Source: Mycobacterium barrassiae
Lineage (GTDB): Bacteria > Actinomycetota > Actinomycetes > Mycobacteriales > Mycobacteriaceae
Length of the DNA: 64,000 nt
Direction of reading: 5' to 3'
Assembly (NCBI RefSeq): GCF_025822765.1
Contig: NZ_JACKUK010000009.1
Location: 62,973-126,972 of the forward strand
This document shows, piece by piece, positions 39,957-64,000 of this stretch. The notes below the pieces were generated by a model, which was not told the DNA's origin, searched no databases, and was given only the letters and a program-made list of their open reading frames with translations. Position 1 is the first letter of the stretch, and each line of letters starts with the position of its first letter. Both the position numbers and the translations under genes were made by a program.

Positions 39957-40133
39957 TGCACCCCCCAGTCGAACTGAAACTACGTTCGGAGCGTCTTGAT
40001 CAACGTAACGAACCTCAGGGCGGAAGTGGTGGAGGTTCTGAAAGTTCACCCCGGCGTACCGCGCTAAATGAAAGCTCGCCAAAGTCTGGGTGACCCGTCT
40101 GGTACAGGCCCGGGGCGTAGGGCGAACGCCGGG

Positions 40134-40320
40134 GTGATCGGTCTGTCGACGTATGCGACCAACATCCTCACACTGCTGGTCGTCGCGACCGGGACCGACT
40201 ACATGGTCTTCGTGCTCGGCGTAGGACCTACGGGACAAGATCGCCAACTTCGACGACTTCTTCCGGCCGCTGCGCAACTATTTCTATTGGGACCCAAACT
40301 GTTACACCATTCCTCCACGG
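40134..40320 (+). pseudogene. MmpL transporter remnant (two fragments)
   Basis: 40134-40220 encodes VIGLSTYATNILTLLVVATG then TDYMVFVLG, a perfect match in style to the third and fourth helices of MmpL lipid transporters. From 40234, in another frame, [20 protein letters not shown] follows, which belongs to the second outside domain several hundred residues later in MmpL. The piece between is deleted, and the rest of the roughly 950-residue gene is gone. The remnant abuts a broken ligase gene. Confidence 0.75.
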
Positions 40321-40337
40321 CGTTGCACAGCCGGCGG

Positions 40338-41102
40338 TGCGGCGCCGCGTTGCGACGGATGGTGGACGACGGTTGGTTCGGCGGCCACGAGGACACCATC
40401 GGTATGGAGGTGGAGTTCGATCTGGTCGACCCGTTGGGCCGACGATCCGGTGGAGTTGTTCGACGAGACCGTTCGGGACTTTCCTCCGCTGTTTCCGACA
40501 ATGGAGGCCGAGGATCCCGACACCGCCCTCGAGGCGGGTTATATTCCGGGTCTGCGCGAAACGGCACCGTGTGGCGCTGGAACCGTCCGGTCTACGACGT
40601 GCAGGCCGGGCGCCCGCAGCTGCGCATCGAGAACCGGGTACTGCCCAGCGGGCCGACGCCCGTCGACATGATCGCCAACGCGGCCTACTACTACGGGCTG
40701 GTCCGCGCGCTTGCCGACACCGACCCCGCGCCTTGGGAGCAGGTGCCGTTCGCGGTGGCCGAGCGCGACCTGCACCGCGCGGCGCGTGACGGGCTGGAAG
40801 CTCAATTATCTTGGCGCGGAGTCGATCACCCGAGCGACCGGCTTACCCTCGAGGTGCTGCTGCCGGCCGCCGCAGCCGGGCTGGACGCCTGGGGTGTGGA
40901 TCCCGACGACCGCGACCGCTACCTCGGTGTCATCGAAGCCCGGGTCCCGAGCGGCCGCACCGGCGCGGCCTGGCAGATCGACGTGGTGCGCCATCTGCAG
41001 GAGCGCGGGCGCGAGCGCGTCGCGGCGCTGCATGAGATGACCCGGCAGTATGTCGAGCACGCCCACACAGGCGCCCCGGTACACGAATGGCCTGTGTCAT
41101 GA
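40338..41102 (+). pseudogene. Glutamate-cysteine ligase family (GCS2) remnant
   Basis: Three pieces in changing frames match a carboxylate-amine ligase of the glutamate-cysteine ligase type. 40338-40443 gives [20 protein letters not shown] and [12 protein letters not shown]. About 40440-40560, in a second frame, gives [20 protein letters not shown] and [13 protein letters not shown]. From 40553, back in the first frame, [39 protein letters not shown] and the C-terminus WQIDVVRHLQERGRER follow. A central block of about 130 residues and the start are missing, so the enzyme is dead. Intact family members condense an amino acid with glutamate using ATP. The last 16 bases overlap the esterase gene start. 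Confidence 0.75.
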
Positions 41103-48945: not shown

Positions 48946-49671
48946 TCACCCAACTGCTTCGCGGTCGTAGAGGCCGTCAAGCAATGACGACACGTTCTTC
49001 GACTGCCATCCCCGGTCGTCAGGGGTGCGGTGACCCGACGAATTCAGCACGCGCGCGGCCGCCGCGCGAGTCACGCCGCAGCTCTCCACCAGCCAGCGCA
49101 CAAAGTCTACGACGGCTCGGCGACGGTCGGCCCACGGCAATCCGGGTGAGGGAAGCTTTGGCGGCCAATCATTGTCGTGTGGGGCTGCCGACGTGGCGTT
49201 CGCCGCCTGCTCGACAACTTTTTCGAGGCTTTCCACCCCGGCAGCGGCCAGTGCCGCACGGTCGAGCGCGTCGACGGCCTGTACCTCACACCGCAGCGCG
49301 TGGTCGATTTCGTTAATGCCGCCGGTGTCCGGGACCGGCCACAGGTCGTGACCCACCAACAAGTCAAGACCGTGCCGTTGCAGCACCAGGGCGAGCCTGC
49401 GGTAGTGCTGCTCGCGACCCAGATCCGATAGCGCATTGGGCATCCATACTGGCCGTCGAACGGAGACCGCGCGGGCCACCGCTGCGACAACCGCTTCAAC
49501 CTCGGTCAGGTCGTCGTAAGAGGCGGGCGCGCCCGAGTCGAACGCGAACATTGCGACGATGCTTGCGGAGCGCATCGCCGCGCGCGCCGTCAATTGTTCA
49601 CAGCTGCGGATGGTTTGGTCGTTTCCGAGCACGACGACCTCAGGCACGGTCGGGTTGTGAGGTCGAACCAT
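48946..49671 (-). CDS. Unknown protein with a recombinase-like C-terminal segment
   Basis: A 241-residue protein starting at an ATG with AAGGAG seven bases upstream. The N-terminal half (VPEVVVLGNDQTIRSCEQL, ASIVAMFAFDSGAP) has short hydrophobic strands. The C-terminus (VTRAAAARVLNSSGHRT, GWQSKNVSSLLDGLYDREAV) resembles the helical piece of large serine recombinases that follows the catalytic domain (A-x-x-LN-x-x-G-x-x-T... W-x-x-x-x-V-x-x-LL). There is no catalytic Ser domain, so it is not an active recombinase. Moderate GC and its setting beside a decayed patch suggest transfer. Confidence 0.65.
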   Translation of the reverse strand: MVRPHNPTVPEVVVLGNDQTIRSCEQLTARAAMRSASIVAMFAFDSGAPASYDDLTEVEAVVAAVARAVSVRRPVWMPNALSDLGREQHYRRLALVLQRHGLDLLVGHDLWPVPDTGGINEIDHALRCEVQAVDALDRAALAAAGVESLEKVVEQAANATSAAPHDNDWPPKLPSPGLPWADRRRAVVDFVRWLVESCGVTRAAAARVLNSSGHRTPDDRGWQSKNVSSLLDGLYDREAVG

Positions 49672-49884
49672 GGCGAGCTCCTTGCGCACGAGATACCGGA
49701 GCGGGTGCAAGCTACGGCATCGGTGAAGTTGATTCGACGGTATCGAGAGCTACTGACAACTCTGTTCGACGGCGCTCTGGTTGCCCGCCATTGCGCGACA
49801 GCGGAGCGACAACGGCTGGCGCGCAGTCCTGGTGCCGGTCAGCGGCTCTGTGATCGCCGTTTTGTGTCGGATGTGCGTCCGATC

Positions 49885-50672: not shown

Positions 50673-52949
50673 TCACCGCATCGACTCCGATGTATCAACC
50701 GACACGGCACGGATAACGTCCAACCACGTCACGACGACCGGCGCCCCGCTTGGGGTCCCACGCGTCAGGAGCCTGACATTGATCGACGCGGACCACGCGG
50801 GCAGTTCTTCGACGAACTCGACGTCTGCCACAAAATAGATATCACCGCGCGGATTGGGGTAACCAGTCGCCATCAAGTCGGCCGCAGTCGATGGGCGCCA
50901 ACGTAGTACCTTCCCAGCGCCGGCCACCTGTAAGAGATTGTTCCGGCGCTCGTACAGCAGAAGTAGCTTCGCACCGAGCTCTCGCCCTCCGATCTCAACG
51001 GCGCCAGTTCGATCGCCAGCACGAATGTTGTACTGCCTCAAGCGTTCTATCCATTCACGATGAGCGGGATCTCGGACAAATCCGAGAAGCACATCCGTGT
51101 CCGCGGGAGGTTCGTCCAGGAAGTCCGTGATCAGTAATGAACTGGGCGTGGGCTCACCAGGTCGATGCACGGTCGCGGTCCAGAAACGATGCCGTTCATC
51201 GCGCGTGACCTGATTGGCGACATGTGTTAGCACATCGTTCAGGAATTGGTCTAGGGCCCGCGAAGACGATGGCAGGCCATCACTGCTCGGCCTCAGCGGA
51301 AAGGCGCCCAATCCAGGCAATAGCTCTTTGAAGCCGGGATGTCGTCGAATGTTCATGATTTCTGATCCCGGGTACAACACGTACGCTCCGGCCGTCCGCG
51401 AGATCGCGTCTCGATAGGCGTGCATCTTGAGCAAGTCGTCCCGCTTCGCATTGCCAGACGTGATCGACCCGTCGTAGGGCTCGTCCGATTCAGGTGCTGA
51501 TTTCATCTGTGCGACGAGATTTTCGACACGGTATTTCGCATCGAAGTGCAGCCAAACTTCCAGCTCCTGAGCGGAGACCTGCGAGGGCGTGCTGCCTTCC
51601 GGTTGTATGCGCACCGAGCAGTCGGGGCGCATCGCCCGGCTCCACGATCCCCGTCGATCATCATTTGCCGCAAAGGTTCGATTGAAGAACACTTCGATGC
51701 TCAGTGGCCGTCCTGCTCGTCGAATCGACCACGACAATTTCGACTTCTCGCCTGACTGCATTGTTATGCAGGTGCCGTCGCTTGCGACAGCGAAGGCACG
51801 CGCCGTTCGGTCCTCCCCGCACACGCGCCCTAGCGAATCCACGACCGCAAGGAAGCACCAAAACTCGTAGAGTGTTGCGATGTTGCGTTGCGAGGCCGCG
51901 AAAACATCGGTCATGTCCACGCGATTAAACCTCAGGGTGGGGGCCGATTCAGTCATCGCAAACGTCCGAAATAGTTCGCGATATCCGGCGCGTTTGAGCA
52001 ACACCTGATCCGAAGTTGGCATTCTCCGTAGTGCACTTACCTCTTGGAAGATGGGGTGCGCCAGGTATTCGTCCAGTTGAGCCCCGACGTCAGCAGCGAT
52101 TTGCAGACCGCGACGCTGCGGCCCGGGTTCGATCTTCACGGAGGACGAGCTCAGCCTGTCGAACAGCTCTAACGCGACGACTCGCCATCGCTGCAATGCG
52201 AATTTGACGAATTGGTTCGCCGAGTTGTCGAGGCTGGCTTCGGCACGATCACGGATGAGCGCAGCAGGAAGCGATTTAAGCGCGGCAGGACCACCTGCCC
52301 ACGGCACCCGCCGACCGGGCACGCACACTGCTCGGCGGAAGGCGGACCCCGCGGGGAAAGGCGATCCAATCGGACGAACCTCTGTCTCAGAAACCCATGT
52401 GCGGTATGGCTGCGAGGTCACATGCGCAATCGCGGCCTCGAAGGCCGGATCCTGCAGGTACGCAGCAACCATCGCGAAGCGAAGGTATAGCAGTTCGGAG
52501 GGCATCTCACTTGGCGCAAGATCAATCAAGCTTGGCGCGAACCCCTGCAGCACTGCCTCGGCAGCGAACGCCGAGATGTCAGTGAGCATTTGGCGGTACT
52601 CGGTCTCGTGCTCAAGTTTGACGGCGAGTACCTCTACCTCGGTCGTCGCACTTTGGCGCGTGGTACGGTCAACGACCTGAATCCGGAGACGTCCAACGGA
52701 TTGACCAGGCCGTAACCGCCCCCGCTTGCAACTCGCATCATCTGGATCGAACAACTCGCGCGGCTCAACATCCACATCCGTTGCACCGGTGAATATTTCG
52801 TAATGGTAGATCCACGCTTCGCGCAGCGCGGCATCACTCGTAGCGTAAAACGTGCTGTCCTGCCGACCGGGAAGATTAGCGATCAACAACTGACCGACAT
52901 CCTGGCCTTCGTCATCTCGAAGCGGCAACCGCATGGGTCCCTGGGGCAT
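50673..52949 (-). CDS. mcrC: DUF2357 McrC-like nuclease subunit of a type IV restriction system
   Basis: A 758-residue protein starting two bases after the mcrB stop. It has an N-terminal beta region, a central helical region (NSANQFVKFALQRWRVVALE) and a PD-(D/E)XK nuclease core with ELEVWLHFDAKYRVENL near residue 470 and KMHAYRDAISRTAGAYVLYPG after it. It matches the DUF2357 class of large McrC proteins. A further C-terminal domain of about 150 residues (EPPADTDVLLGFV, AVEIGGRELGAKLLLLYERR) may recognise DNA. The partner supplies the NTPase motor. Codon use is less GC-biased than in the core genes around it, a sign of transfer. Confidence 0.87.
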   Translation of the reverse strand: MPQGPMRLPLRDDEGQDVGQLLIANLPGRQDSTFYATSDAALREAWIYHYEIFTGATDVDVEPRELFDPDDASCKRGRLRPGQSVGRLRIQVVDRTTRQSATTEVEVLAVKLEHETEYRQMLTDISAFAAEAVLQGFAPSLIDLAPSEMPSELLYLRFAMVAAYLQDPAFEAAIAHVTSQPYRTWVSETEVRPIGSPFPAGSAFRRAVCVPGRRVPWAGGPAALKSLPAALIRDRAEASLDNSANQFVKFALQRWRVVALELFDRLSSSSVKIEPGPQRRGLQIAADVGAQLDEYLAHPIFQEVSALRRMPTSDQVLLKRAGYRELFRTFAMTESAPTLRFNRVDMTDVFAASQRNIATLYEFWCFLAVVDSLGRVCGEDRTARAFAVASDGTCITMQSGEKSKLSWSIRRAGRPLSIEVFFNRTFAANDDRRGSWSRAMRPDCSVRIQPEGSTPSQVSAQELEVWLHFDAKYRVENLVAQMKSAPESDEPYDGSITSGNAKRDDLLKMHAYRDAISRTAGAYVLYPGSEIMNIRRHPGFKELLPGLGAFPLRPSSDGLPSSSRALDQFLNDVLTHVANQVTRDERHRFWTATVHRPGEPTPSSLLITDFLDEPPADTDVLLGFVRDPAHREWIERLRQYNIRAGDRTGAVEIGGRELGAKLLLLYERRNNLLQVAGAGKVLRWRPSTAADLMATGYPNPRGDIYFVADVEFVEELPAWSASINVRLLTRGTPSGAPVVVTWLDVIRAVSVDTSESMR

Positions 52950-52951
52950 GG

Positions 52952-55105
52952 CTATTCAGCGAAACTGACGAATTGATTCGCACGCACGGACTCGATCATG
53001 CGGACAATCTTGTGATGTGTAACGGGCAGCCGCGGCACCGTACCGGGTCCCTCGGCTAGCGCCTTCAGCTCGTTGAGCACCGGCTCAATCCTCCGCCGCG
53101 AGCCGTGAATCTTCGGCAGAACTTTCTGCATCATGGCGAGGTCGAGCGCGGTATGACCATCGGTGTCACCCGTCGCTGCGAAGAAGGAACAAAACCGGAC
53201 GATCTCGTAGAGCGTTCGGTGTCCGAACTCTTGATTTGCCCGCGCCAAAATCGCATGCGCATCTCGAAGCGTCGATACGATTTCATCGCGGGCCGGGTGA
53301 GGATGTTCTCCTTGCCAGTCATCGCGCTCCGCAAGCGATGCGAAGGCGCGCACTCGCCGGTCCTCCCCCGCGCGCACAGCGCTTGGCCGCTGGAGCTCCG
53401 CGTCGAGTTCGTCCGCAGTCACCCGAAATTCGAAGGTGAAGGCCCTGTCGAGAACTTTTGGCGAGAACATATAGGTCGTCTCATCCACATTTACTGTGCC
53501 GACCACGAAAAGGTTTCGCGGCAACGGGAGCCTTTGCGCCTCTACGTCACGCAGAACCCACTGGCGAGCATGTTCTTCGAAGACTAGATCCGGCAAGACC
53601 GGACGTCGTGATTCAACCCCGGAAAGAAAGTCCGAGAAGTACCGCTCGACGTGCGCCAAGTTCATTTCGTCCAGGATCAGCAAGTAGGGGTGCCCTGGAT
53701 CGTTCGCCGCGCGAAGAACAAACTCGAACGCTTCCGGGACATACCACACCGGCGCCCCGGAAGCCGATCTACGGAGCGCATCCTCGTACCCGAAAATCGA
53801 TTCCGGCCCTGTCCAGTCAGGCCGCACGGGCACGACGACGTGGCGATGACGCCCATGTTCATCGGTGCCGAACCACTCGCCGAGTCTCATCGCGAGCTGA
53901 GTCTTACCCGAGCCCGCCAGCCCCGTCAGGATCGCGAACGGTTTTGCAAGAAGACTGCTCAAGAACGATCGAACGAGGTTGGAGCCCTCTGGAAAGCGGA
54001 GTCCTGAGGCATTCACCGCGTCGGCAAAGTCACGATAAAGTTCAGCCGGCGTTGGAACCTCCGACGATGTTGGACCTGAACTTGCAGCGGATGGGACGGA
54101 AGGAAGGTGCGCCGCGAGCTCGGGAAAGCGCTGAGCCAGTTCTCTCACGAACGCGTCCTGGAGGCGAACAAGATAGACCTGCTGGACGGATCCGGTGACT
54201 GTGAACGGCGAACCCTGTTTGATCCGCGCGCCCTCGTCGATGGCACCAAGTGCAACCGGTTCGTTCAGCTCCTCATATTGCGTCTCGACTAGCCGTCCCG
54301 CTTCCTCCCAGGCTTGGTCGCCGAGCGGATTCGGCGCCGGCTTCGCTGCTGCACTTACATGGCTCGCGGCTCGCAACGAGCCATTGCTGTAATGCAGAAC
54401 AACGTCACCCTCGCGAACCGCATCCATAGTGTCCCAGTGGTATTGAGGACGGCCCGCCTTACTGCGCATCGGTGCCCAAAGGAAACCGCCATCGCGCTCC
54501 TTCGTGTATGTGGCGCCTTGGTTGACCCACCAGACCGAGACCTGCGGCTCAAGGAAAGTGGCTCCTTCGTCCGTTAGGTCACCGTTCCTATCGATGAGCC
54601 CGCTCGCGATGAGGAGTTCTCGGTAGCGGGCACCCTGCGATTCGAAGGTCCGGTCTGCTTGCCACTGATCGGTGTTTGCATGTTCAGCCAGCGCGCGCCC
54701 CAGCTCGTAACTAGAGAACCCGGTGGGCAGATCACGCGCAACCTCAAGAGCCATCCGGACGTCCTCCGCCAGCGGAGCCGTGCCCGTTAATAGCCGGTCA
54801 CGAAGCACTCTCGCCTGCATTTCATTGACCACCCACGGATTTGAACAGTCGATATTCTGCGCGTAGGTGTGTCCCGTTTCAGTGAGCTCCCACCGCCCGT
54901 CGTTCTCCATCGCGAGACCGAGCAACGCCGCGAACCGAAGAAAATCACTTGCCCGCCGCTCCGGATTCTTGTGGAGACCGTCAGACTTGAAGTGTTGCTC
55001 CGGGTCGTCTCCGAGCAGTTGCTCCACCGTGGCCGGGCCAAGTTCACGAAGGCGGGCAAGCAGCAGGTTGCCGTAGCTGAACTTGAGGGTCGGGATCGAC
55101 TGCAC
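52952..55105 (-). CDS. mcrB: McrB-like GTPase/AAA+ motor with an EVE domain
   Basis: A 717-residue protein. An N-terminal winged-helix-like region (1-190) precedes an EVE/PUA-like reader domain (about 193-310; VWWVNQGATYTKERDGGFLW, WDTMDAVREGDVVLHYSNGS). EVE domains bind modified cytosine. The C-terminal AAA+ domain has Walker A LTGLAGSGKTQLAMRL near 393, Walker B LLILDEMNLAHVERYFSDFL and the McrB-typical VGTVNVDETTYMFSPKVLDR. It drives translocation for the McrC nuclease and should restrict modified foreign DNA. It starts at a GTG. No strong ribosome site is visible. Confidence 0.88.
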   Translation of the reverse strand: MQSIPTLKFSYGNLLLARLRELGPATVEQLLGDDPEQHFKSDGLHKNPERRASDFLRFAALLGLAMENDGRWELTETGHTYAQNIDCSNPWVVNEMQARVLRDRLLTGTAPLAEDVRMALEVARDLPTGFSSYELGRALAEHANTDQWQADRTFESQGARYRELLIASGLIDRNGDLTDEGATFLEPQVSVWWVNQGATYTKERDGGFLWAPMRSKAGRPQYHWDTMDAVREGDVVLHYSNGSLRAASHVSAAAKPAPNPLGDQAWEEAGRLVETQYEELNEPVALGAIDEGARIKQGSPFTVTGSVQQVYLVRLQDAFVRELAQRFPELAAHLPSVPSAASSGPTSSEVPTPAELYRDFADAVNASGLRFPEGSNLVRSFLSSLLAKPFAILTGLAGSGKTQLAMRLGEWFGTDEHGRHRHVVVPVRPDWTGPESIFGYEDALRRSASGAPVWYVPEAFEFVLRAANDPGHPYLLILDEMNLAHVERYFSDFLSGVESRRPVLPDLVFEEHARQWVLRDVEAQRLPLPRNLFVVGTVNVDETTYMFSPKVLDRAFTFEFRVTADELDAELQRPSAVRAGEDRRVRAFASLAERDDWQGEHPHPARDEIVSTLRDAHAILARANQEFGHRTLYEIVRFCSFFAATGDTDGHTALDLAMMQKVLPKIHGSRRRIEPVLNELKALAEGPGTVPRLPVTHHKIVRMIESVRANQFVSFAE

Positions 55106-55332
55106 GCTGTCAGGCTAGTTCGGTACGCCGGCGGCTCGCAGCGAACCAGACTGCATCGCGTCAAGCCACGCCGCGCCTACCCATCGACACATGAACCCGT
55201 AAGCCTCAGAATTCACACCAGCCTCAGGCCAACGCGACACACCACAATCCCTCAACCGCAATGCGATTCCACTGACGTCGCCAAACGCCGGCCTCACGAA
55301 ATTCCCCACCGACACGACCCGTCGCCACACCG

Positions 55333-55395
55333 GACATGTCGTCCCCGTGCCCTATGTTGAGGCCTCCGGACGAACTCAACTAGATAGAGGAACGG
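55333..55395 (+). promoter_or_regulatory. jetA promoter/leader, twin of the jetB leader
   Basis: GACATGTC (55333-55340) begins exactly 20 bases before a -10 like TATGTT (55353-55358), then GAGGC-TCCG, and a GAGGAAC ribosome site. The same blocks in the same order and spacing precede jetB (59642). The palindrome lies over the -35 position, so it may replace the -35 by an activator or bind a repressor. Confidence 0.7.
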
Positions 55396-56826
55396 GTGGA
55401 CGACAACGCGGCAGCCGCTGACCTGCTCGAGCTCAACCGCGACCTGCAGGGCTCCCGCGCCATCCGCCTGCTCGCCGCCACCAACCTCAGCCTCTACGCG
55501 ACCCTCATGGAGCGCCACCTCTCCGACGGTGCCGTCCCCGAGACCGAACTCGTCATCCACCTCGAACGCGACCTCGCCGACCTCGACGACCCCCAGTCCG
55601 GCCTCGCCCTCATCAAATCCTGGGCCGCCCAGGGCTGGCTGCACCGCATCGTCGACGAACGCCACGGCACCAACGTCTGCTATCTCACCCAGGACGCCCG
55701 CCGGGCACTCGATTTCCTACGAGGTATGCGCCGCCAGGACACCATCGCCACCGGCGGCTCCATCACCGGCATCGCCGCCCGCCTCAAGCAAGTCGCCCTA
55801 CGCGTCGACCACGACCCCGCCCGCATCCGCAAGCACATCGAAGCCGAAATCGCCGTCCTCCACGAGGAACTCGACCAACTCGACGCCGGCCAACGCCCCC
55901 AACCCGACGTCACCGACTGCTACGACGAAGCCCGCGCCATCGCCCTGCAAATGGAACGTCTCATCACCGACATCGGCCAATACGGCACCATGATCGAGCA
56001 GGCCACCGCGGCGCTGGACGAGCCCATCGACTCCAACACCGAGTACCGCGACCGCCAGCGCCAGATGTACTCCGACTACCAGGCCGCCTGGGACTCCCAG
56101 GGCCGCGACTCCCACCGCGCCTTCCTGCGCATGATCAACGACCCCGACCAGCGCGCCGAGTTCGAAGCCGACGTCGCCGCCGTCGCCGAAGCCCTGCCCG
56201 ACCTCGACCCCGCCCTGCGCAAGGTCATGGCCGGCTTCTTCGAACTCGTCGGCCACCAGATCGATGAAGTCGAACGCATCCAGCAGCGCTGCGCCCAACG
56301 CGTCAAGCGTTTCACCGCCTTCGGCACCATGGAGCAGAGCCGGGGCATCGCCCGCCAACTCAACGAGGCCATCGGCGCTGCCCGCGCCCTGCTCAAATCC
56401 TCCTTCACCGACTCCCGCCTCGACATCGACGTCCCGCTGGCCCGCCATGCCATCAGTTCCGTTGGCGCACTGAGCTTCAAGATCGGCGACCTGTCCAACC
56501 CCAAACCCGCCAAACCCGCCGACGGCGAGGTCGACCTGTCCAGCTTCGCCGCCCTCACCACCCAGGTCGACGCCCCCGCCATGTCCGACATGCTCAACCG
56601 CGCCCTGCGCGACGGCCCCGTCGACCTCCCCGACGCCGTCGCCATGCTCGACACCGCCTACCTCGGCCACGTCATCGTGCTGTGGTCCTGGGCCCTCACC
56701 CAGCCCGACCCCAAGCCCAAAGACTCGGTCACCGTCCGCTTCAAATCCCTCGACGGCCGCGACCGCCAAATCGCCGTCCCCCGCCTGACTTTCACCGAGC
56801 CCGTCACCACCGGAGTCGCCTCCTAA
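55396..56826 (+). CDS. jetA: JetA/MksF-like kleisin subunit (DUF3375) of a Wadjet/Mks SMC complex
   Basis: A 476-residue DUF3375 protein. A winged-helix N-terminus (LLELNRDLQGSRAIRLLAAT, YATLMERHLSDG) precedes GWLHRIVDERHGTNVCYLTQDARRAL, a long helical middle (about 150-290) and a C-terminal domain (RRLTF-like end). It is the kleisin-type subunit that bridges the SMC heads of JetC. It starts at a GTG. It is separated from jetB and jetC by three genes, one of them on the opposite strand, so it must have its own promoter. Codon use is very C-rich at third positions. Confidence 0.9.
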   Translation: MDDNAAAADLLELNRDLQGSRAIRLLAATNLSLYATLMERHLSDGAVPETELVIHLERDLADLDDPQSGLALIKSWAAQGWLHRIVDERHGTNVCYLTQDARRALDFLRGMRRQDTIATGGSITGIAARLKQVALRVDHDPARIRKHIEAEIAVLHEELDQLDAGQRPQPDVTDCYDEARAIALQMERLITDIGQYGTMIEQATAALDEPIDSNTEYRDRQRQMYSDYQAAWDSQGRDSHRAFLRMINDPDQRAEFEADVAAVAEALPDLDPALRKVMAGFFELVGHQIDEVERIQQRCAQRVKRFTAFGTMEQSRGIARQLNEAIGAARALLKSSFTDSRLDIDVPLARHAISSVGALSFKIGDLSNPKPAKPADGEVDLSSFAALTTQVDAPAMSDMLNRALRDGPVDLPDAVAMLDTAYLGHVIVLWSWALTQPDPKPKDSVTVRFKSLDGRDRQIAVPRLTFTEPVTTGVAS

Positions 56827-56836
56827 CCAGGAGTGC

Positions 56837-57871
56837 TCAGTCCACCCGGTGGGCTCTGCGGAAGCGCTCGAGGTAGGCAGGCCAGTCCCAGGTGGACAGG
56901 AACTCGGTGGTCGCCGAATTCCCGTTCTCGTACAGCGCTTCGGTGTCCTCGCGGGTGATGTCGAAGTCGAGCACACCGACATCGGTCGAATCCACCTGAA
57001 TGGCACGCACCTTCACCCAGGGCAGGCTGAGGTGAGCCTGGTCGTGCCCGACCAGCATGGTGGTGATCAGGCTTTCCAACAATGACGGTGCACCCCAGCG
57101 CAGTCGGCCCAGCCCGGGAATCAGTTGTTCGACGTTGGGCGCCGGCAGGTAGGGAACCACCGTCACACCGAACGTGGGCCAGCGGGGCTCCTTGCCGTCG
57201 GGGCGGTCGAAGGAGTCGATCGGGAAGTTCGACAGCACACCGCCGTCGACCAAGGTGCACGGTTGTCCCGCAGCGTTATTCAGCGTCACCGGAGGATACA
57301 GAAACGGAATCGCCATCGAGGCCCGCACCGCGTCGGCGACAGATTGCTCGTCCGGATCCCGCCCATAGACCCGGCGGTAGTCCCACGGCAGCCGCACCAG
57401 TTGGCCGGTCGTCAGGTCGGCCACCGTGACCACCAGGCGGTACCGGCGCTCCGGCAGCAGGTGATCGTCGTCGATGGCCAAATCGCCAAAGGTGCTGACG
57501 CCCAGGTTTTTCAGCTCACCGCGTACCCACTCGTGTGCGAAATCACCGCGGTAGATACCGGTCTCGCGCAACAGCCCCCATGCCGTACCCAACAGCGGGA
57601 TCCGCTCGATCGGCCCGCTGTCGGCGAACTTCCGGTACGGCACACTCAACGCGAGCTCCCGCAACTGCTCGCTGCTCAGTGGATCGCGCTGCGACGCGGC
57701 GGCCACCACCGCTCCCACCAGCGACCCCGCCGACGTGCCGGACACCCGCTCGACCTCATACCCCGCGTCCACGAGCGCGCCGACAGCTCCCACCAACCCG
57801 ATGCCCTTCACCCCGCCGCCGGACAACACCAGATCCGCACGTCGAGGGCCCGAAGGGCGCATCGCAGCCAT
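56837..57871 (-). CDS. Patatin-like phospholipase
   Basis: A 344-residue lipid acyl hydrolase. The oxyanion motif SGGGVKGIGLVGAVGALVDAG is near residue 18, the nucleophile elbow GTSAGSLVGAVVAAA near 44, and the catalytic Asp in LVDGGVLSNFPIDSF near 215. The Ser-Asp dyad is complete. I chose the ATG at 57871 (MAAMRPSG). Starts 21 codons earlier or three codons later are possible. It lies convergent with jetA, its stop ten bases from jetA's. Patatins also appear as effectors in defence systems, but here housekeeping use is equally likely. Confidence 0.88.
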   Translation of the reverse strand: MAAMRPSGPRRADLVLSGGGVKGIGLVGAVGALVDAGYEVERVSGTSAGSLVGAVVAAASQRDPLSSEQLRELALSVPYRKFADSGPIERIPLLGTAWGLLRETGIYRGDFAHEWVRGELKNLGVSTFGDLAIDDDHLLPERRYRLVVTVADLTTGQLVRLPWDYRRVYGRDPDEQSVADAVRASMAIPFLYPPVTLNNAAGQPCTLVDGGVLSNFPIDSFDRPDGKEPRWPTFGVTVVPYLPAPNVEQLIPGLGRLRWGAPSLLESLITTMLVGHDQAHLSLPWVKVRAIQVDSTDVGVLDFDITREDTEALYENGNSATTEFLSTWDWPAYLERFRRAHRVD

Positions 57872-57998
57872 GGGCCCAGCCTGGCACGGGATGCTGAGAA
57901 TCTCGTTGCCGCCGCGAAACGCAACGCGCACCAACCTGGGACGGACAAGCCGAGCGCCTGCTGGCCATCGTGATCAGCGCTGGGGCAGACTCGGGCCT

Positions 57999-58979
57999 GT
58001 GGCGGAGTTGATCATCGCGCGCAACCCGGATGAGGATTCCCGGCTGCCTTATCTGCTGCGGCTTCCACAGCCCGGCGGCGACCTGCTGTTTCGGACGTCG
58101 GGGACGTGGCCGCGGGTCAAGGCGCTGTACTGCCACCCGGTGAGTCTCGACGAGTGGCCCGCCGATGCGGCGATCGTCGAACGCGCCGAACTGCGGTCGT
58201 GTCAGCGCCGCGGTGGGGCCATCGATGTGATTCTGCAGCGGGCCAGAGAGAACCGCTCCCAACTGGTGTTCACCACCGCACGGGGTCGCGACGTTGTCTT
58301 CTGGCAGGCACCGCGCACCCGCAAGCAGGCGCGTCCGAACGTGCGTACCCCGACCGCACGCGCCCAGGGCATCGACGTGCTGCACATCCTGGTCGATTCA
58401 CATGAGCGGTACGCCTACCAATTCCGGACCCAACAGGCCAGCACCGCTCAGCGGGCGCTGCCGTGCGGCGACTACGGTCTCGAGGTCGACGGGCAGTTGG
58501 TCGCCAGCGTGGAACGCAAATCCTTGGCCGATCTAGTGTCCAGCCTGACCAACGGCAAGCTGCGCTATCAGGTCGCCGACCTGGCCGCGTTGCCGCGCGC
58601 AGCCGTAGTTGTGGAGGACCGTTACTCAGGCGTGTTCAAGCTCGACTATGTGCGTCCCGCCGTGGTCGCCGACGGGCTGGCGGAACTGCAGATCCGCTGG
58701 CCCAACGTGGCGATCGTGTTCTGCGAGACCCGTCAGCTCGCCGAGGAATGGACCTACCGGTTCCTTGCCGCCGCGCATACCTGGGCGAGCACTGAAAGTG
58801 CTGCCCTGCAACGCATTTCGCTGGCAAAAGTCGACATCGCTCAGGCGGCCGCCGCGCCCGGACCGAGCACCGCGGAGGTCCGCGCCTGGGCGCGCACCGC
58901 CGGGCTCCCGGTACCCGACCGCGGCAAGCTTCGACCCGATATCTGGCGGGCGTGGCACGACGCCAACAACCCGCGCTGA
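57999..58979 (+). CDS. ERCC4-type nuclease with an Lsr2-like C-terminal domain
   Basis: A 326-residue protein. Residues about 1-115 are an unrecognised N-terminal domain. An ERCC4/XPF-like nuclease domain spans about 125-240: HILVDSHERYAYQF, QRALPCGDYGL, and VASVERKSLADLVSSLTNGK, which keeps the V-E-R-K catalytic core, then AVVVEDRYSGVFKLDY. The last 40 residues (STAEVRAWARTAGLPVPDRG, KLRPDIWRAWHDA) match the AT-rich DNA-binding end of Lsr2. The protein could therefore cut foreign AT-rich DNA. It starts at a GTG and lies between jetA and jetB. Confidence 0.85.
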   Translation: MAELIIARNPDEDSRLPYLLRLPQPGGDLLFRTSGTWPRVKALYCHPVSLDEWPADAAIVERAELRSCQRRGGAIDVILQRARENRSQLVFTTARGRDVVFWQAPRTRKQARPNVRTPTARAQGIDVLHILVDSHERYAYQFRTQQASTAQRALPCGDYGLEVDGQLVASVERKSLADLVSSLTNGKLRYQVADLAALPRAAVVVEDRYSGVFKLDYVRPAVVADGLAELQIRWPNVAIVFCETRQLAEEWTYRFLAAAHTWASTESAALQRISLAKVDIAQAAAAPGPSTAEVRAWARTAGLPVPDRGKLRPDIWRAWHDANNPR

Positions 58980-59032
58980 CCGCACCAAAGACACGTCAAA
59001 GACCACCCGTCGAGCGCGGTAGGCTCACGATC

Positions 59033-59437
59033 GTGGAGCCCGACGGCCTTGAATCCCGCGTCGAAGCGCTGGAAACACATGTGCGCGATCTTGACGGGCG
59101 GGTCCGGGCCAGCGAACACGGCGCCGCCGCAGCCCGAGTCCTTGCCGGAGCGGCCGATCGCGACGTCACACAATTCCATGGCGAGCTTCGCGACTTCCGC
59201 CAAGCAACAGTGGCGAGCTTCAACGCCATGCGCGACGACATGACAGATTTGCGCACCGAGATGCGCGCCGGTTTCACGCGCGTCGACCAACACCTGGATC
59301 TCGTCGACCGACACCTCGATCAAGTTGACAACGGCTTCACGGAGGTTCGTGGCAAGCTCGACGCCGCTGCTGCAGGCCAACAACAAATCGTGGACATTCT
59401 CCAGAGACTCATCGACGATCAGCAACGAGACCACTGA
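59033..59437 (+). CDS. Coiled-coil protein of unknown function
   Basis: A 134-residue hydrophilic protein with heptad repeats almost throughout: LESRVEALETHVRDLDGRV, MTDLRTEMRAGFTRVDQHL, LVDRHLDQVDNGFTEVRGKL. No membrane segment or catalytic motif. It starts at a GTG 54 bases after the ERCC4 gene, probably in the same transcript. Similar short coiled-coil proteins are common in mycobacteria. A link with the SMC complex downstream is possible only from position. Confidence 0.72.
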   Translation: MEPDGLESRVEALETHVRDLDGRVRASEHGAAAARVLAGAADRDVTQFHGELRDFRQATVASFNAMRDDMTDLRTEMRAGFTRVDQHLDLVDRHLDQVDNGFTEVRGKLDAAAAGQQQIVDILQRLIDDQQRDH

Positions 59438-59624
59438 GAGCCATCACCCGCGGCGGCAGCGCAACCCCCTCGTTTTGTGCGCCGGAAGCAGCTCAAGGGG
59501 ACGTGCGCGCCGAACAACATCCGCCTCATATTTCACAGCAGTACCGCCCACCGCAATGCTTTGCGTGCGCACCTATTCCGCCGACGTCGGCAAATGGTGG
59601 ACCGTCGAACTTTCATCCCGACAC

Positions 59625-59640
59625 GGCCCCTTCCGGGGCC
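59625..59640 (+). terminator. Perfect short hairpin before the jetB promoter
   Basis: GGCCCC-TTCC-GGGGCC, a six-pair GC-only stem with a four-base loop, ends two bases before the GACATGTC element. It may isolate jetB-jetC from read-through of the upstream coiled-coil gene. Confidence 0.5.
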
Positions 59641-59641
59641 A

Positions 59642-59702
59642 GACATGTCGGGCCGGTGACCTAAGTTGAGGCGTCCGACCAACTGCAGAGCGAGGAACGC
59701 AC
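59642..59702 (+). promoter_or_regulatory. jetB promoter/leader, twin of the jetA leader
   Basis: GACATGTC (59642-59649), 20 bases to TAAGTT (59662-59667), GAGGCGTCCG, then GAGGAAC before the GTG. The order and spacing repeat the jetA leader at 55333-55395 although the genes downstream are not related in sequence. Confidence 0.7.
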
Positions 59703-60401
59703 GTGACCACCGTTGAAGACGCCGACTTCACCGCGTTTTCCGAACTCCCCCAGGTTGACCAACAGACCGCCCGCCCACCCGGCGTCCGCCGGCCCCGCTT
59801 CGACGGCGACGTCTCCGAACTCCCCGACCGCGCCTGCTGGGCCCTGCAGCACCTGCTCACCCGCCGCTACCTCAGCGCTGAAGCCGACGCCGACGTCTAC
59901 AGCTGGGTCGTCGAGTACCGCAAAGAACTCGCCGTCCGACTCTCCGAACTCGATCTGATCCTGCGCATCGTCGACGGCACCGACATCGCCTTCATCGAAC
60001 AGGCCCGCTACGAATCCGCCAGGGGCATCAAGCTTTTACGCCGCGAACCGCTCGGCACCTACGACTCCATCCTTGCCCTGCACCTGGCCCAGATGATGCG
60101 CGCCGCCGGCGGGCAGACCGTCCTCATCAGCCGCGAGGAGATGCACAACCTGTTCTCCGGCGTCCTCAACGACACCGACCGCGACGCCGTCACCTTCGCC
60201 GCCCGCATCGACGGCGCCATCGCGCGGCTCACCGGCCTGGAGATCCTGCGCAAGAGCCGCGACGACGAGGACAGCTACACCATCTCCCCCGTCATCACCG
60301 CCATCATGACTGCCTCGGTCATCACCGAACTGCAGCAGCAGTTCGAACAGCTCCTCAACGGCGGCGCTCCCGCAGAAGACGAGACCGACCTTGACGACTG
60401 A
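59703..60401 (+). CDS. jetB: JetB/MksE-like subunit (DUF4194) of the Wadjet/Mks complex
   Basis: A 232-residue DUF4194 protein: [60 protein letters not shown] and a winged-helix part with [20 protein letters not shown]. It is the small kleisin-binding subunit. It starts at a GTG and overlaps jetC by eleven bases, so the two products are made together. An acidic tail ([10 protein letters not shown]) ends the protein. Confidence 0.9.
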
Positions 60402-63400
60402 ACAGTTCCACCTGTCCCGCCTGCAGGTCATCAACTGGGGCGTCTTCGACGGCTACCACTCCATCCCGTTCAGCGCGGGCGGCGCCCTGATCGCCGGCGC
60501 CTCCGGCAGCGGTAAATCCTCACTGCTGGACGCGATTTCGCTCGGTTTCCTGCCGTTCAACCGCCGCAACTTCAACGCCTCCGGCGACAACACGGCCGCC
60601 GGCTCCAGCGCCGGCCGCCGCACCGTCGACAAGTACGTCCGCGGCGCCTGGGGCCAACGCAGCGACGGCGGCACCAGCCGCGTCATGTACCTGCGCGGCG
60701 AGGGCACCGCCTGGTCGGCCGTCGCCGTCACCTACACCAGCGACACCGGCCGCACCGTCACCGGCCTGGTGCTCAAGTGGCTGACCGGCGAATCCCGCAA
60801 CGACTCGTCCAGCCGCTTCGTCCTCGGCGACGGCGACCTCGACATCGAGGACGTCTGCAACCGCTGGGCCGCCGGCCGCTTCGACACGAAAGTCTTCACC
60901 GACGACTGGCGCTTCACGACCAAGGTCGAATCGCAGTATCTCGCGCAGCTGTACGCCACCATCGGCATCCGCGCCTCCGACGCCGCACAGCAGCTGCTCG
61001 GCAAGGCCAAGTCGCTGAAAAGCGTTGGCGGACTGGAACAGTTCGTCCGCGAGTTCATGCTCGACGAACCCGACAGCCTCGCCCGGCTGCCCGAGGCGCT
61101 CAAGCAGATCGACCCGCTCGTCGAGGCCCGCGAACTGCTGGCCGTGGCCCAGAAGAAACGCAAGATCCTCGGCGACATCGAGGCCATCCAGCAGCGCTAC
61201 ACTTCCGAGTCCTCCGACCTCGGCATCATCGACCTCGTCGACGCGCCGATGGTGCGCGCGTTCACCGACCACGTCCGCCTCGCCCAGTGCCCGACGCAGA
61301 TCGAGACGCTCGACAGCACCATCGCGCAGCTGGAGAACGAGTACGAGGACGTCACCCGCAGCCTGAATCTCGCCAAGGCCGAAGCGGATTCGCTCAACGC
61401 TCAGATCAGCGGATCCAGCGCCAACATCGCTCCGCTGCAGTCGCAGGTGACCGCCGCCGAGACCGAAGCCGAACAGGTCGAGCGCCGCCGCGCCGCCTAC
61501 GACGACATGCTCGCCGCCCAGGACATCGACTCCCCCCACACCGCCGACGAGTTCTGGAACCTGCGCGAGGAACTGCTCGCCGAGGCCACCGAACTGCTCG
61601 CCAAGGTGGAGCGCAACCGCGAGGCGTCCACCGACGCCGAGTACGCGCAGAAGGCCGCCCGCATCGCCCGCGACGACGCCGCCAAGGAACTCAAGCGCGT
61701 CGAGCACGTCGGCTCCGCGCTGCCGGAGTTCGCCATCGCGATGCGCGACCACATCAGCGCGGCCATCAAGGTCGCCCCCTCCGAGCTGCCCTACATCGCC
61801 GAGCTGCTCGACCTCAAACCCGACCAGACCCGCTGGCGCACCGCCGTCGAAAAGGTCTTGAGAGGCGCGGGCCTGCGGCTGCTGGTACCCGACCAGCACT
61901 GGGAGAAGGTGCTGCGGTTCGTCAACGACACCGACATGCGCGGCCGGCTGCAGCTGCATCACGTGCGGACCAAGATGCTCGGCGCCGACCCCGTCGACCC
62001 TGAGCCGAACACGTTGGCGGGCAAGCTGTTCGCCGTCGACCCCAGGCACCCGTGTGCGGCCGAGGCTGTCGACGTCATCACCCACGCCGGCGACCACGTC
62101 TGCGTCGACACCCCCGACGTGTTCGCCCGCTACCGCCGCGCCGTCACCGACACCGGCCTGTACAAGGACTCCGACCGGCTTGCGATCAAGGACGACCGGC
62201 GGGCGGTCAAGCAGTCCGAGTACCTGTACCAGGGCGACGTCAGCGCCAAGATCAACGCGCTGACACTGGAGCTGGCCGCGGCCGAGGAGACCTACCAGAA
62301 GGCCCGCCGCGTCGCCGACGACATCGCCGCCCAGCGCCAGCAGTGGCGCGACCGCGCCGCGGCGTGCAAGGCGATCTGCGAGCAGTTCCCGCAGTGGAGT
62401 CAGATCGACACCGAGACCGCCGACGGCCACGCCGAGCGGCTGCGCGAACAGTACGAGCTGCTGCTCGCCGACAACCCCGACCTCGACGCGCTGAATGCCC
62501 GCGCCGACGAATGCTGGTCGCAGATCCAGAAATTCATGACCCGCCGCGGCGCCATCCAGACGCGCCGCGACACCCTCGACGAGCGTCGCACCCGACTGCT
62601 GGACCTGCAGGAGCGGCTGTCGCCGGCGTTCGTGTCCGAGCCGCTGACCGAACTGCTGCACCGCTACTCCGCCGCGCTGCCGATGTCGTTGGAGCTGCTC
62701 GACCCCGAGCCGTACCGCGATGCGCTGTTCACCGCGATCAAGAAGGAGCGTGAGCAGCTGCGGGAGAGCCGGCGCCGCTCCTACGACGAGCTGGCGCGCA
62801 TCCTCAACACGTTCGACACGTCGTTCCCCGACGCGATCCCCAACGACAGCGAGGACTTCGACGAGCGGGTGCACGACTACGTCGCGCTGTGCAAGCACAT
62901 CGACGAGCGTGAGCTGCCCGAAGCCTACGAGCGGATGATGCGGCTGGTCACCGAGCAGGCGCCCGACGCGATCCTCACGCTGCACCGCGTCGCCGAGCAG
63001 GAGGCGCGGCGCATCGCCGAGCAGATCGACCGGGTCAACAACGGCCTGGGCGCGGTGGAGTTCAACCGCGGCACCCGGCTGACGCTGCGCGCGACGCCGC
63101 GGAACCTGGCGGCGGTCGACGAGCTGACCGAGATCGTGCGGTCGATCTCGCGGCGCATCGCCGAGGTGGGGCTGGGCGACAAGCAGGCGATTCTCGACCA
63201 GTACGCCGACATCCTGCGGCTGCGCAACCGGCTGGCGTCCACCGCGCCGGAGGACAAGGCGTGGACGCGCGACGCGCTCGATGTGCGCAACCGGTTCATG
63301 TTCGACTGCGCGGAGTGGGACGTCGCCACCGACGAGCTGATCCGCACGCACAGCAATGCCGGCGACAACTCCGGCGGCGAGCAGGAGAAGCTGATGGCGT

Positions 63401-63753
63401 TCTGCCTCGCCGGTGCGCTGAGCTTCAACCTGGCCAGTCCCGACAGCGACGACAACACCCCGGTGTTCGCGCAGCTGATGCTCGACGAGGCGTTCTCCAA
63501 GTCCGACCCGCAGTTCGCGCAGCAGGCGCTGTCGGCGTTCCGCAAGTTCGGCTTCCAGTTGGTGATCGTGGCGACGGTGCAGAACGCGACGACCATCCAG
63601 CCCTACATCGACAGCGTGGTGATGGTGTCGAAGACGGAGGCGACGGGTCGCAATGCCCGCCCGGTGGCGACGGTGGCGACGCGGACCATCTCGGAGTTCA
63701 CCTCGCTGCGGCAGGAGATGCGCAAGAGCGCGAAGGTGCCGGTCAGTGTGTGA
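60391..63753 (+). CDS. jetC: JetC/MksB-like SMC ATPase of the Wadjet/Mks complex
   Basis: A 1120-residue SMC-type protein. Walker [10 protein letters not shown] is at residues 36-44, and two long coiled coils (about 270-450 and 625-860) flank a hinge-like middle ([20 protein letters not shown]). The ABC signature [12 protein letters not shown] near 990 and Walker [15 protein letters not shown] near 1030 lie in the C-terminal head. The start is a TTG inside the jetB end. No ATG occurs before the ATP site. This is the motor that extrudes DNA loops. In Wadjet, small circular DNA is then cut by JetD, which is not seen here. Confidence 0.92.
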
Positions 63754-63821: not shown

Positions 63822-63913
63822 TAGTGCGGCTGACCAAAATTGAAGCAGGAAGCCATATCTGGCAGTTCCCTGAGAAGTGCAGACTCGCTGCGGTTTTCGT
63901 ACTAGTGTCAACC

Positions 63914-64000
63914 ATGGTTGAGCTTCCAGCCCGCCGGCAGCGCCTGATGGCGCCGCGTACTGGGGTCTCACCTCGGGGACGCTGCCCGGCGATATCTGCG
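63914..64000 (+). CDS. Possible start of a gene cut by the window edge
   Basis: An open frame begins at ATG 63914 (MVELPARRQRLMAPRTG) and runs off the end. TACTAG about ten bases upstream could be a -10, which would give a leaderless message. No ribosome site is seen and 29 residues are too few for a family call. Confidence 0.25.
   Translation, partial: MVELPARRQRLMAPRTGVSPRGRCPAISA

Follow-up and report, generated by a model that had tools for sequence, protein, structure and literature searches.

Results

A split Wadjet-type locus without JetD

The locus at the end of the window (the whole 64,000-nucleotide stretch of Mycobacterium barrassiae DNA analyzed here) probably encodes a nuclease-less SMC complex, the operon of which was split by duplication and complementary loss and carries PafBC-type promoters on both halves. 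The features relevant to this reading, numbered from the first letter of the window, are the following:

55266..55395, plus strand: jetA leader, promoter block, first copy (motif family; alignment to the jetB leader)
55337-55358, plus strand: PafBC-type motif TGTCG-N11-TATGTT in the jetA leader
55396-56826, plus strand: jetA, mksF-like kleisin (DUF3375; ORF and family match, E 3.7e-103)
56837-57871, minus strand: patatin-like phospholipase, cargo (ORF and family match; longest ORF reaches 57934)
57999-58979, plus strand: ERCC4-Lsr2 nuclease-like gene, mobile cargo (ORF and family match)
59033-59437, plus strand: coiled-coil protein gene, cargo (ORF and family match)
59575..59702, plus strand: jetB leader, second copy of the jetA leader (alignment to the jetA leader)
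59646-59667, plus strand: PafBC-type motif TGTCG-N11-TAAGTT, in the jetB leader
59699..59705, plus strand: GCACGTG at the fusion of the jetA-type leader/start to jetB (same 7 nt at both jetA ends in the compact locus L008)
59703-60401, plus strand: jetB, mksE-like KITE subunit (DUF4194; ORF and family match, E 7.4e-37)
60391-63753, plus strand: jetC, mksB-like SMC ATPase (Pfam AAA_29 and SbcC_Walker_B)

The gene order given in the initial annotation (jetA, a patatin gene on the opposite strand, ERCC4-Lsr2, a coiled-coil gene and jetB-jetC) was borne out by the open reading frames and family matches. The start codons of the three intervening genes are chosen ones that yield products shorter than the longest ORFs. 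The locus contains the JetA (DUF3375), JetB (DUF4194) and JetC (SMC-like ATPase) subunits typical of Wadjet type I, for which the best PADLOC models are JetA1, JetB1 and JetC1. The ATPase motifs of JetC are present (LMLDEAF was read, along with the Pfam AAA_29 and SbcC_Walker_B matches), and the solved structures nearest to it by sequence are those of Wadjet JetC; a sequence-based search matched neither JetA nor JetB to any solved structure. The compact jetABCD order is not found here, and jetA and jetB lie 2,876 nt apart by coordinates. A McrBC-like pair adjoins the locus. Downstream of jetC, where a hairpin and non-coding sequence had been described, there is no long non-coding stretch because the ORF starting at 63824 encodes a STAS-domain protein and a P450 gene comes after it; support for hairpins there is weak, with two terminator-like ones in the 1.1 kb scanned against a shuffle mean of 0.7.

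The JetD nuclease (DUF3322-DUF2220) that is co-encoded in Wadjet type I was found in neither the locus nor the genome. Specifically, PF09983 and PF11795, which detected their target in the positive control C. glutamicum, gave 0 matches in the genome, an assembly of 5.9 Mb in 49 contigs that is 99.98% complete, and an HMM built from 13 mycobacterial JetD sequences had no match in the 23 kb past the window end. The contig itself, NZ_JACKUK010000009.1 (310,873 bp), extends beyond the window. The earlier claim that no JetD gene follows jetC is upheld by both searches, which came back empty genome-wide and in the 23 kb beyond position 64000 alike.

With respect to the genus as a whole, this JetC type (at least 55% identity) is present in 69 of 148 genomes, and 65 of the 148 have no jetC match. 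The JetD HMM found nothing in the examined stretches of 80 relatives, 75 of which span more than 5 kb past jetC. Among 42 further loci, JetD is missing from all 14 rows with JetC of at least 55% identity (stretches examined of at least 1.5 kb; two rows are one locus, G044) and present in all 23 with JetC below 30%. A JetC at 34% is accompanied by JetD as well, as is the 49% type, which two identical rows represent; two loci with JetC at 33-35% lack it, 12-kb stretches included. On a tree of 51 JetC rows the JetD label changes 3 times, versus 17.2 when shuffled. JetD in trans shows no association with the JetC type (11 of 69 genomes that have it versus 12 of 79 others), and no flanking family (ORFs of at least 150 aa) that could be a conserved fourth gene occurs in more than 14 of 80 loci. 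JetB has been described as contacting JetD through an IFDR motif (in the consulted part of PMC10586767); RFDGD of JetB, compared by eye, is retained both with and without JetD. Taken together, these sequence comparisons indicate that JetD absence is clade-wide in this JetC branch and that the branch is chromosomal, nuclease-free and MksBEF-like. The proposal of an MksBEF set without nuclease thus holds for composition, as three subunits occur without MksG/JetD; the chromosome-organizing role attached to it is one that we infer.

Predicted PafBC-type promoters

The leader of jetA carries what looks like a PafBC-type (DNA-damage) promoter, as predicted from its motif. The PafBC consensus is given as tTGTCRgtg-8 nt-TannnT (in the consulted part of PMC5656591), and the jetA and jetB promoters of the window contain TGTCR and TAnnnT at exact consensus spacing with the gtg missing, a match to the upper-case part only. 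Among 77 jetA leaders from this branch, 51 contain TGTC-N12-TAnnnT (0.06 in shuffles; random-window background, 0.56 of 80 windows) and 26 lack it. Of 19 armed (JetD-bearing) mycobacterial Wadjet loci, 14 have the motif at -29/-30 of jetA, one has it at -50 and 4 lack it; 0.13 would be expected from the background in the full set of 39 loci analyzed, and 11 of the 15 motif-bearing armed loci share one JetA type. In other genera, 16 of the 20 loci do not have it, and the four with no JetD match comprise three without the motif (L259-L261) and one with it (L276).

PafBC itself is present in the genome as an adjacent WYL pair, one member having HTH_PafC, and the whole genome contains 7 perfect motifs versus 0 for the reversed pattern, one of them 42 nt before uvrA. 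A further WYL gene is situated on the same contig as the jet locus. Our literature search found no publication connecting PafBC with Wadjet. In the M. smegmatis delta-pafBC proteome table, which covers 38% of the proteome, the consulted part of the source lists no Mks, Ept or Muk protein and no MSMEG_0370, and it includes MSMEG_5002, likened by its authors to a chromosome partition protein (PMC5656591).

A real promoter that is read by another WYL regulator or by plain SigA, with PafBC-sensed damage not being the signal, is a possible but rather unlikely alternative. It would suit the absence of the consensus gtg from the window promoters and the additional WYL gene on this contig, and SiwR is described as also reading a -26 site (in the consulted part of PMC10693628). 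The exact TGTC-N12-TAnnnT spacing argues against it, as does the full TGTCRGTG, which 8 of the 19 armed mycobacterial loci and 4 of the 77 loci of the unarmed branch contain.

Leader copies and gene fossils in split loci

The split looks like the outcome of operon duplication followed by complementary loss, judging from leader copies and gene remnants. Split loci make up 8 of the 88 loci with all three jet genes and, with L006, number nine, this locus included. A motif-bearing copy of the jetA leader precedes jetB in 9/9 split loci and jetC in 3/3, these copies having been selected by the motif itself. Local alignment of the jetA and jetB leaders scores 69, versus no more than 31 for any of 500 shuffles. 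The jetB leaders average 72% among themselves versus 57% to jetA leaders of other species; jetA leaders average 56% and form no group of their own, and the two leaders of the sister genome G035 are 72% alike. In the M. barrassiae genome, a far-upstream leader pattern retrieved only the jetA copy, the jetB copy deviating from the pattern.

Remnants of the missing genes are also found. G035 has a 46-nt jetB stub behind jetA, with one mismatch, and the first codons of jetA stand before jetB in both G035 and G136. Codons resembling those of jetA likewise precede jetC in L006, where no jetA lies within the 23 kb examined, and fragments occur in G116 (jetA and jetC) and L005 (jetC). Two complete copies of this jet type were seen in none of the 148 genus genomes. 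The compact loci G134, L007, L081, L008 and L034 nest inside the split group and L017 falls outside it, and therefore several resolutions or transfers would be needed.

That an island simply inserted into a compact operon, with no duplication, is improbable. The cargo is plastic and mobile and the McrBC-like pair is adjacent, but insertion alone leaves jetB's copy of the jetA leader unaccounted for and gives neither the jetB stub behind jetA nor the jetA codons before jetB. The idea of a chance insertion is sustained insofar as most copies of the three intervening genes are unlinked to jetC, and contradicted, in its simple form, by the marks of duplication and complementary loss.

Selection on the jet genes

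Between this genome and G035, both split, dN/dS is 0.10 for jetA, 0.13 for jetB and 0.05 for jetC; across six pairwise comparisons, jetA and jetC range over 0.05-0.27 and jetB over 0.13-0.40. By this measure all three genes are under purifying selection. These low values, together with the fact that most of the 69 genomes have open jet frames, make it improbable that the locus is a decaying Wadjet remnant heading for loss after JetD went, a reading that would accommodate the broken or remnant jet genes in the relatives G027, G040, G016, G024 and G105 and the 65 genomes with no jetC match.

ERCC4-Lsr2 and the other cargo genes

Patatin homologues occur in 101 of 148 genus genomes (E 1e-60 or better), and matches to the coiled-coil gene in 28 of 148, many of them partial. 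The divergent patatin-ERCC4 pair is also found in G062, a genome with no jetC match. ERCC4-Lsr2 sits between jetA and jetB, and GD...ERKSLAD, read by eye, is presumably its ERCC4 catalytic motif. It lies within 10 kb of jetC in 4 of the 13 genomes with both (G000 and G008, with remnants in G035 and G136), a proximity that exceeds random placement; L005 has it 3 kb past jetC, and in G030 it is ~6 kb from the jetC of an armed Wadjet. That ERCC4-Lsr2 took over from JetD as effector nuclease of the complex is nonetheless highly improbable: remnants included, it is carried by 13 of the 69 genomes that have this JetC type versus 21 of the 79 that lack it, it is found on 23 plasmid records, it is down to its last 58 codons, a C-terminal piece, beside the intact jetABC of G035, and the jet genes have no conserved neighbor among ORFs of at least 150 aa across 80 loci.

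The initial annotation's suggestion of another nuclease in JetD's place was rejected for ERCC4-Lsr2 on these co-occurrence, decay and plasmid results, the 4-of-13 proximity being counter-evidence, and by sequence comparison this protein is unlikely to be the nuclease of the complex. The further possibility it had raised, that the three genes are unlinked to jet genes in all relatives, is borne out in part, by most copies, which are unlinked to jetC, and by the G062 pair.

Discussion

Our preferred reading is of a three-subunit Wadjet/Mks SMC complex, comprising the kleisin JetA, the KITE subunit JetB and the ATPase JetC, from a JetD-less mycobacterial branch. Such a complex would still extrude DNA loops, and may handle the chromosome in an MksBEF-like manner and leave plasmids uncut. 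A P-jetABC unit would have been duplicated, or a second unit would have arrived alongside, after which the copies lost complementary genes, one retaining jetA and the other its leader with jetB-jetC, with cargo in between. Because each survivor retains a leader copy, both halves would be under the same kind of promoter. In its -26/-10 layout the promoter fits the PafBC DNA-damage pattern, from which we infer that levels of the complex would rise once single-stranded DNA activates PafBC.

A broader proposal, which we regard as evenly balanced, is that the mycobacterial Jet/Mks class, armed and unarmed, is wired to the PafBC ssDNA alarm, with a mostly leaderless promoter in armed loci, and that the unarmed branch is a damage-induced chromosomal loop extruder. 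If so, DNA damage would raise the anti-plasmid immunity of armed mycobacterial Wadjet, and the unarmed operon would be divisible without loss of co-regulation, each piece having a promoter copy. The split locus would represent an operon that came apart when duplicated copies lost complementary genes, each piece retaining a promoter of the same type. Moreover, Wadjet-type complexes occur both with and without nuclease in a single genus, a natural collection in which to ask how a loop extruder that cuts plasmids turns into a chromosome factor.

In terms of known systems, the locus shares homologous kleisin, KITE and SMC subunits with Wadjet type I (JetABCD / EptABCD / MksBEFG), as well as a predicted promoter type common to most mycobacterial Wadjet loci tested, but differs in being without JetD, in its split operon and in its second leader. 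Pseudomonas aeruginosa MksBEF is likewise a three-subunit complex without nuclease. Within mycobacteria, MSMEG_0370 of M. smegmatis is described as a second MukB-like protein besides EptC (in the consulted part of PMC6135046); a second mycobacterial MukB-like protein is thus already on record, and it is by this description that we liken it to jetC.

The jet locus and the absence of JetD

The split, JetD-less jet locus of the window is a real finding. Its jet genes, which encode members of the Wadjet/MksBEF family, and the genes between them lie in the order in which the initial annotation had placed them:

55337-55358, promoter motif before jetA
55396-56826 (+), jetA (kleisin)
56837-57871 (-), patatin gene
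57999-58979 (+), ERCC4-Lsr2 gene
59033-59437 (+), coiled-coil gene
59646-59667, promoter motif before jetB
59703-60401 (+), jetB (KITE)
60391-63753 (+), jetC (SMC ATPase)

Walker A, signature and Walker B motifs are readable in jetC, and a STAS-domain gene and then a P450 gene lie 3′ of it. With respect to the Wadjet nuclease, a genome-wide search with two JetD families gave no match in the window's own genome (G000) and did give matches in a control genome, and an HMM trained on 13 chosen JetD sequences found no JetD in the window or in the stretches from its relatives.

The absence of JetD is a property of the clade. None was found in the stretches around the jet loci of the best 80 of 167 relatives (nearly all mycobacteria by name), the stretch scanned extending more than 5 kb past jetC in 75 of the 80; at locus L080 the contig ends within jetC. 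A JetC match is present in 83 of 148 genus genomes and reaches at least 55% identity in 69 (55 at 80–100%, nine at 59–60%, four at 55–56%, and the broken G027); the remainder are G078, at 49% with JetD, 11 genomes with only a type at about 25–29%, and two with remnants. When 42 loci were checked, JetD was absent beside JetC in all 14 with JetC at ≥55% identity (two rows being the same locus) and in two with JetC at 33–35%, 12-kb stretches included, and was present beside JetC in 26 further loci. On a JetC tree of 51 rows the JetD label takes 3 changes, as against 17.2 when shuffled, with long branches that leave the deep order unsure. Because of this uncertainty, and because the JetD-bearing 49% type adjoins a JetD-less row, more than one loss of JetD, or a regain, is possible. 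JetD is present in 23 of the 148 genomes, and elsewhere in the genome it is no commoner with the unarmed (JetD-less) JetC type (11/69) than in the others (12/79). The initial annotation's first reading, a nuclease-free set, thus holds as to composition and is clade-wide. Since jet genes are broken or remnant in some relatives (G027, G040, G016, G024 and G105), the complex seems dispensable in places.

Neighbouring genes

The alternative reading, that another nuclease has taken the place of JetD, is unsupported: ERCC4-Lsr2 matches, remnants counted, occur in 34 of 148 genus genomes (13/69 with the unarmed JetC type versus 21/79 others), and no flanking family is widespread, the widest among ORFs of at least 150 aa within 5 kb of 80 jet loci reaching only 14. 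ERCC4-Lsr2 does lie less than 10 kb from jetC in 4 of the 13 genomes having both (G000, G008, and remnants in G035 and G136) and less than 40 kb away in 6 (adding G132 and G130). Such proximity is more frequent than expected by chance in a genome of 6 Mb, and either a functional link or a common hotspot of insertion might be responsible. In the sister genome G035, where JetC is 98% identical and the locus is also split, the gene is reduced to its last 58 codons. It is found on 23 plasmid records from mycobacteria, Rhodococcus, Streptomyces and Pseudonocardia, recurs as a plasmid gene in the first two (L242 and L243 among these records), and has different neighbours in the two plasmid records inspected; phage matches are limited to two weak haloviral records. 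Relatives of JetC are found on 17 plasmid records, all below 60% identity.

Patatin homologues are present in 101 of 148 genus genomes (E of 1e-60 or better), one of them 0.5 kb past jetC in G009, and G062, which has no jetC match, carries a divergent patatin–ERCC4 pair. Matches to the coiled-coil gene were found in 28 of the 148 genomes, and a relative of it (G010:C99:193265-193633) lies less than 1 kb from the JetD of an armed, that is JetD-bearing, Wadjet. At 12 loci a gene read by eye as exodeoxyribonuclease III lies 3′ of jetC (for example, L050 13318-14088). Two other elements of the window are as follows:

50673-55105 (-), McrBC-like pair: a DUF2357-PDDEXK_7 protein and an ATPase (PADLOC PDC-M26A match, weak McrB)
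40068-41102 (+), gene piece, apparently internally truncated, with no Pfam match

The pair had no tblastn match in the jet loci of 80 relatives. The gene piece has a counterpart in L005, a 523-aa open frame directly 3′ of jetC, and matches DNA 5′ of jetA in G134.

Origin of the split

Of 92 loci surveyed by script, all three jet genes were read in 88; those left out were L006 (no jetA in 23 kb), L080 (contig end), and G130 and G074 (compact, minus strand). A gap of more than 200 nt was found in 8 of the 88, and L006 adds a jetB–jetC gap; compact loci have gaps between −31 and +117 nt. We propose that a second P-jetABC unit formerly stood at the locus, and that the two copies then shed complementary parts, on the grounds of leader copies (promoter blocks before jet genes), fragments of jetA, jetB and jetC, and a fusion at GCACGTG.

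In terms of leaders, those of jetA and jetB in the window are homologous (103 nt at 71%): their local alignment scores 69, whereas the highest score was 31 among 500 shuffles and 30 among 990 random windows. A motif-bearing leader precedes 9/9 split jetB and 3/3 split jetC genes, these leaders having been chosen by motif and every gene having yielded one. Between species, jetB leaders average 72% identity to one another and 57% to jetA leaders; the jetA leaders form no tight group (56%), and the jetA/jetB pair of G035 is 72% alike. As for fragments, G035 retains a 46-nt start of a second jetB, with one mismatch, immediately 3′ of jetA, and the start region of jetA 5′ of its working jetB. G136 keeps a longer piece of the jetA start, L006 has jetA-like start codons 5′ of jetC, L005 has a 69-nt jetC fragment, and in G116 (L127/L128) fragments of a second jetA (352 nt) and a second jetC (345 nt) flank the working genes. 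The compact locus L008 carries the 7-mer GCACGTG twice, where jetA starts and where it meets jetB, and a deletion between the two copies would yield the window's fusion GGAACGCACGTGACC.

The second unit may have come from tandem duplication or from arrival of a related copy, and the evidence fits both. Five loci within the split group (G134, L007, L081, L008 and L034) are compact, and L017, which lies outside that group, is split; this points to resolution or transfer more than once. Values of dN/dS of 0.05–0.13 for jetA, jetB and jetC (window versus G035) indicate purifying selection maintained after the split. This proposed duplication-and-loss origin is a new part of the finding.

A putative DNA-damage-type promoter

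Also new is the shared promoter, which by its sequence appears to be of the DNA-damage type. TGTC-N12-TAnnnT occurs in 51 of 77 jetA leaders of the clade, against 0.06 expected from shuffles and 0.56 per 80 in random windows; of the 26 leaders lacking it, some, as read here, are one base off and others have an apparent gene immediately 5′. The spacing is that of the published P1 consensus, tTGTCRgtg-8 nt-TannnT (PMC5656591), and PafB is described as reading a −26 motif and adapting SigA (PMC11804915). The form TGTCR-N11-TAnnnT is found four times in the window (0.59 expected), two of these being the jetA and jetB leaders. G000 encodes PafC and an adjacent WYL protein, and contains 7 perfect motifs for PafBC, the WYL-type DNA-damage regulator, against 0 reversed; one precedes uvrA. 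A further PafBC-type motif (49737-49758, -) lies just 5′ of a 254-aa ORF (48946-49710, -) that has no Pfam match. No jet protein is named in the delta-pafBC proteome table of PMC5656591, a result that is neutral to negative for PafBC control. A literature search with most subscription papers outside its scope found no PafBC–Wadjet link, the one paper mentioning both leaving them unconnected in its passages on them.

The promoter was also sought with other JetC types, 42 loci being read and 39 analysable (three yielded no jetC), with 0.13 motif loci per 39 expected from each locus's own background. TGTCR-N11-TAnnnT lies near jetA in 15 of 19 JetD-bearing mycobacterial loci, although these fall by best JetA query into only four types (motif in 11/14, 2/2, 1/1 and 1/2), so that the rows are not independent. 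In 14 of the 15 it sits at −29 or −30, and 8 of the 19 have the TGTCRGTG form. Other genera have it in 4/20 (L271, L274, L276 and L278). In a comparison of three of these four types, the JetC proteins of the first two are 46–48% identical mutually and the third is 27–29% identical to both, and the window JetC is 23–26% identical to each. A motif at −29 or −30 places the −10 box between about −12 and −7 of jetA, and the messages would then be leaderless, provided that the starts are right. Armed jetA genes with the motif match the PafBC type at the sequence level.

Comparison with known systems

A nuclease-free MksBEF of P. aeruginosa has already been proposed as a JetABCD derivative (PMC10586767), and mksFEBG is described as a four-gene operon of conserved structure (PMC10123090). 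M. smegmatis is described as having two MukB-like proteins, EptC and MSMEG_0370 (PMC6135046).
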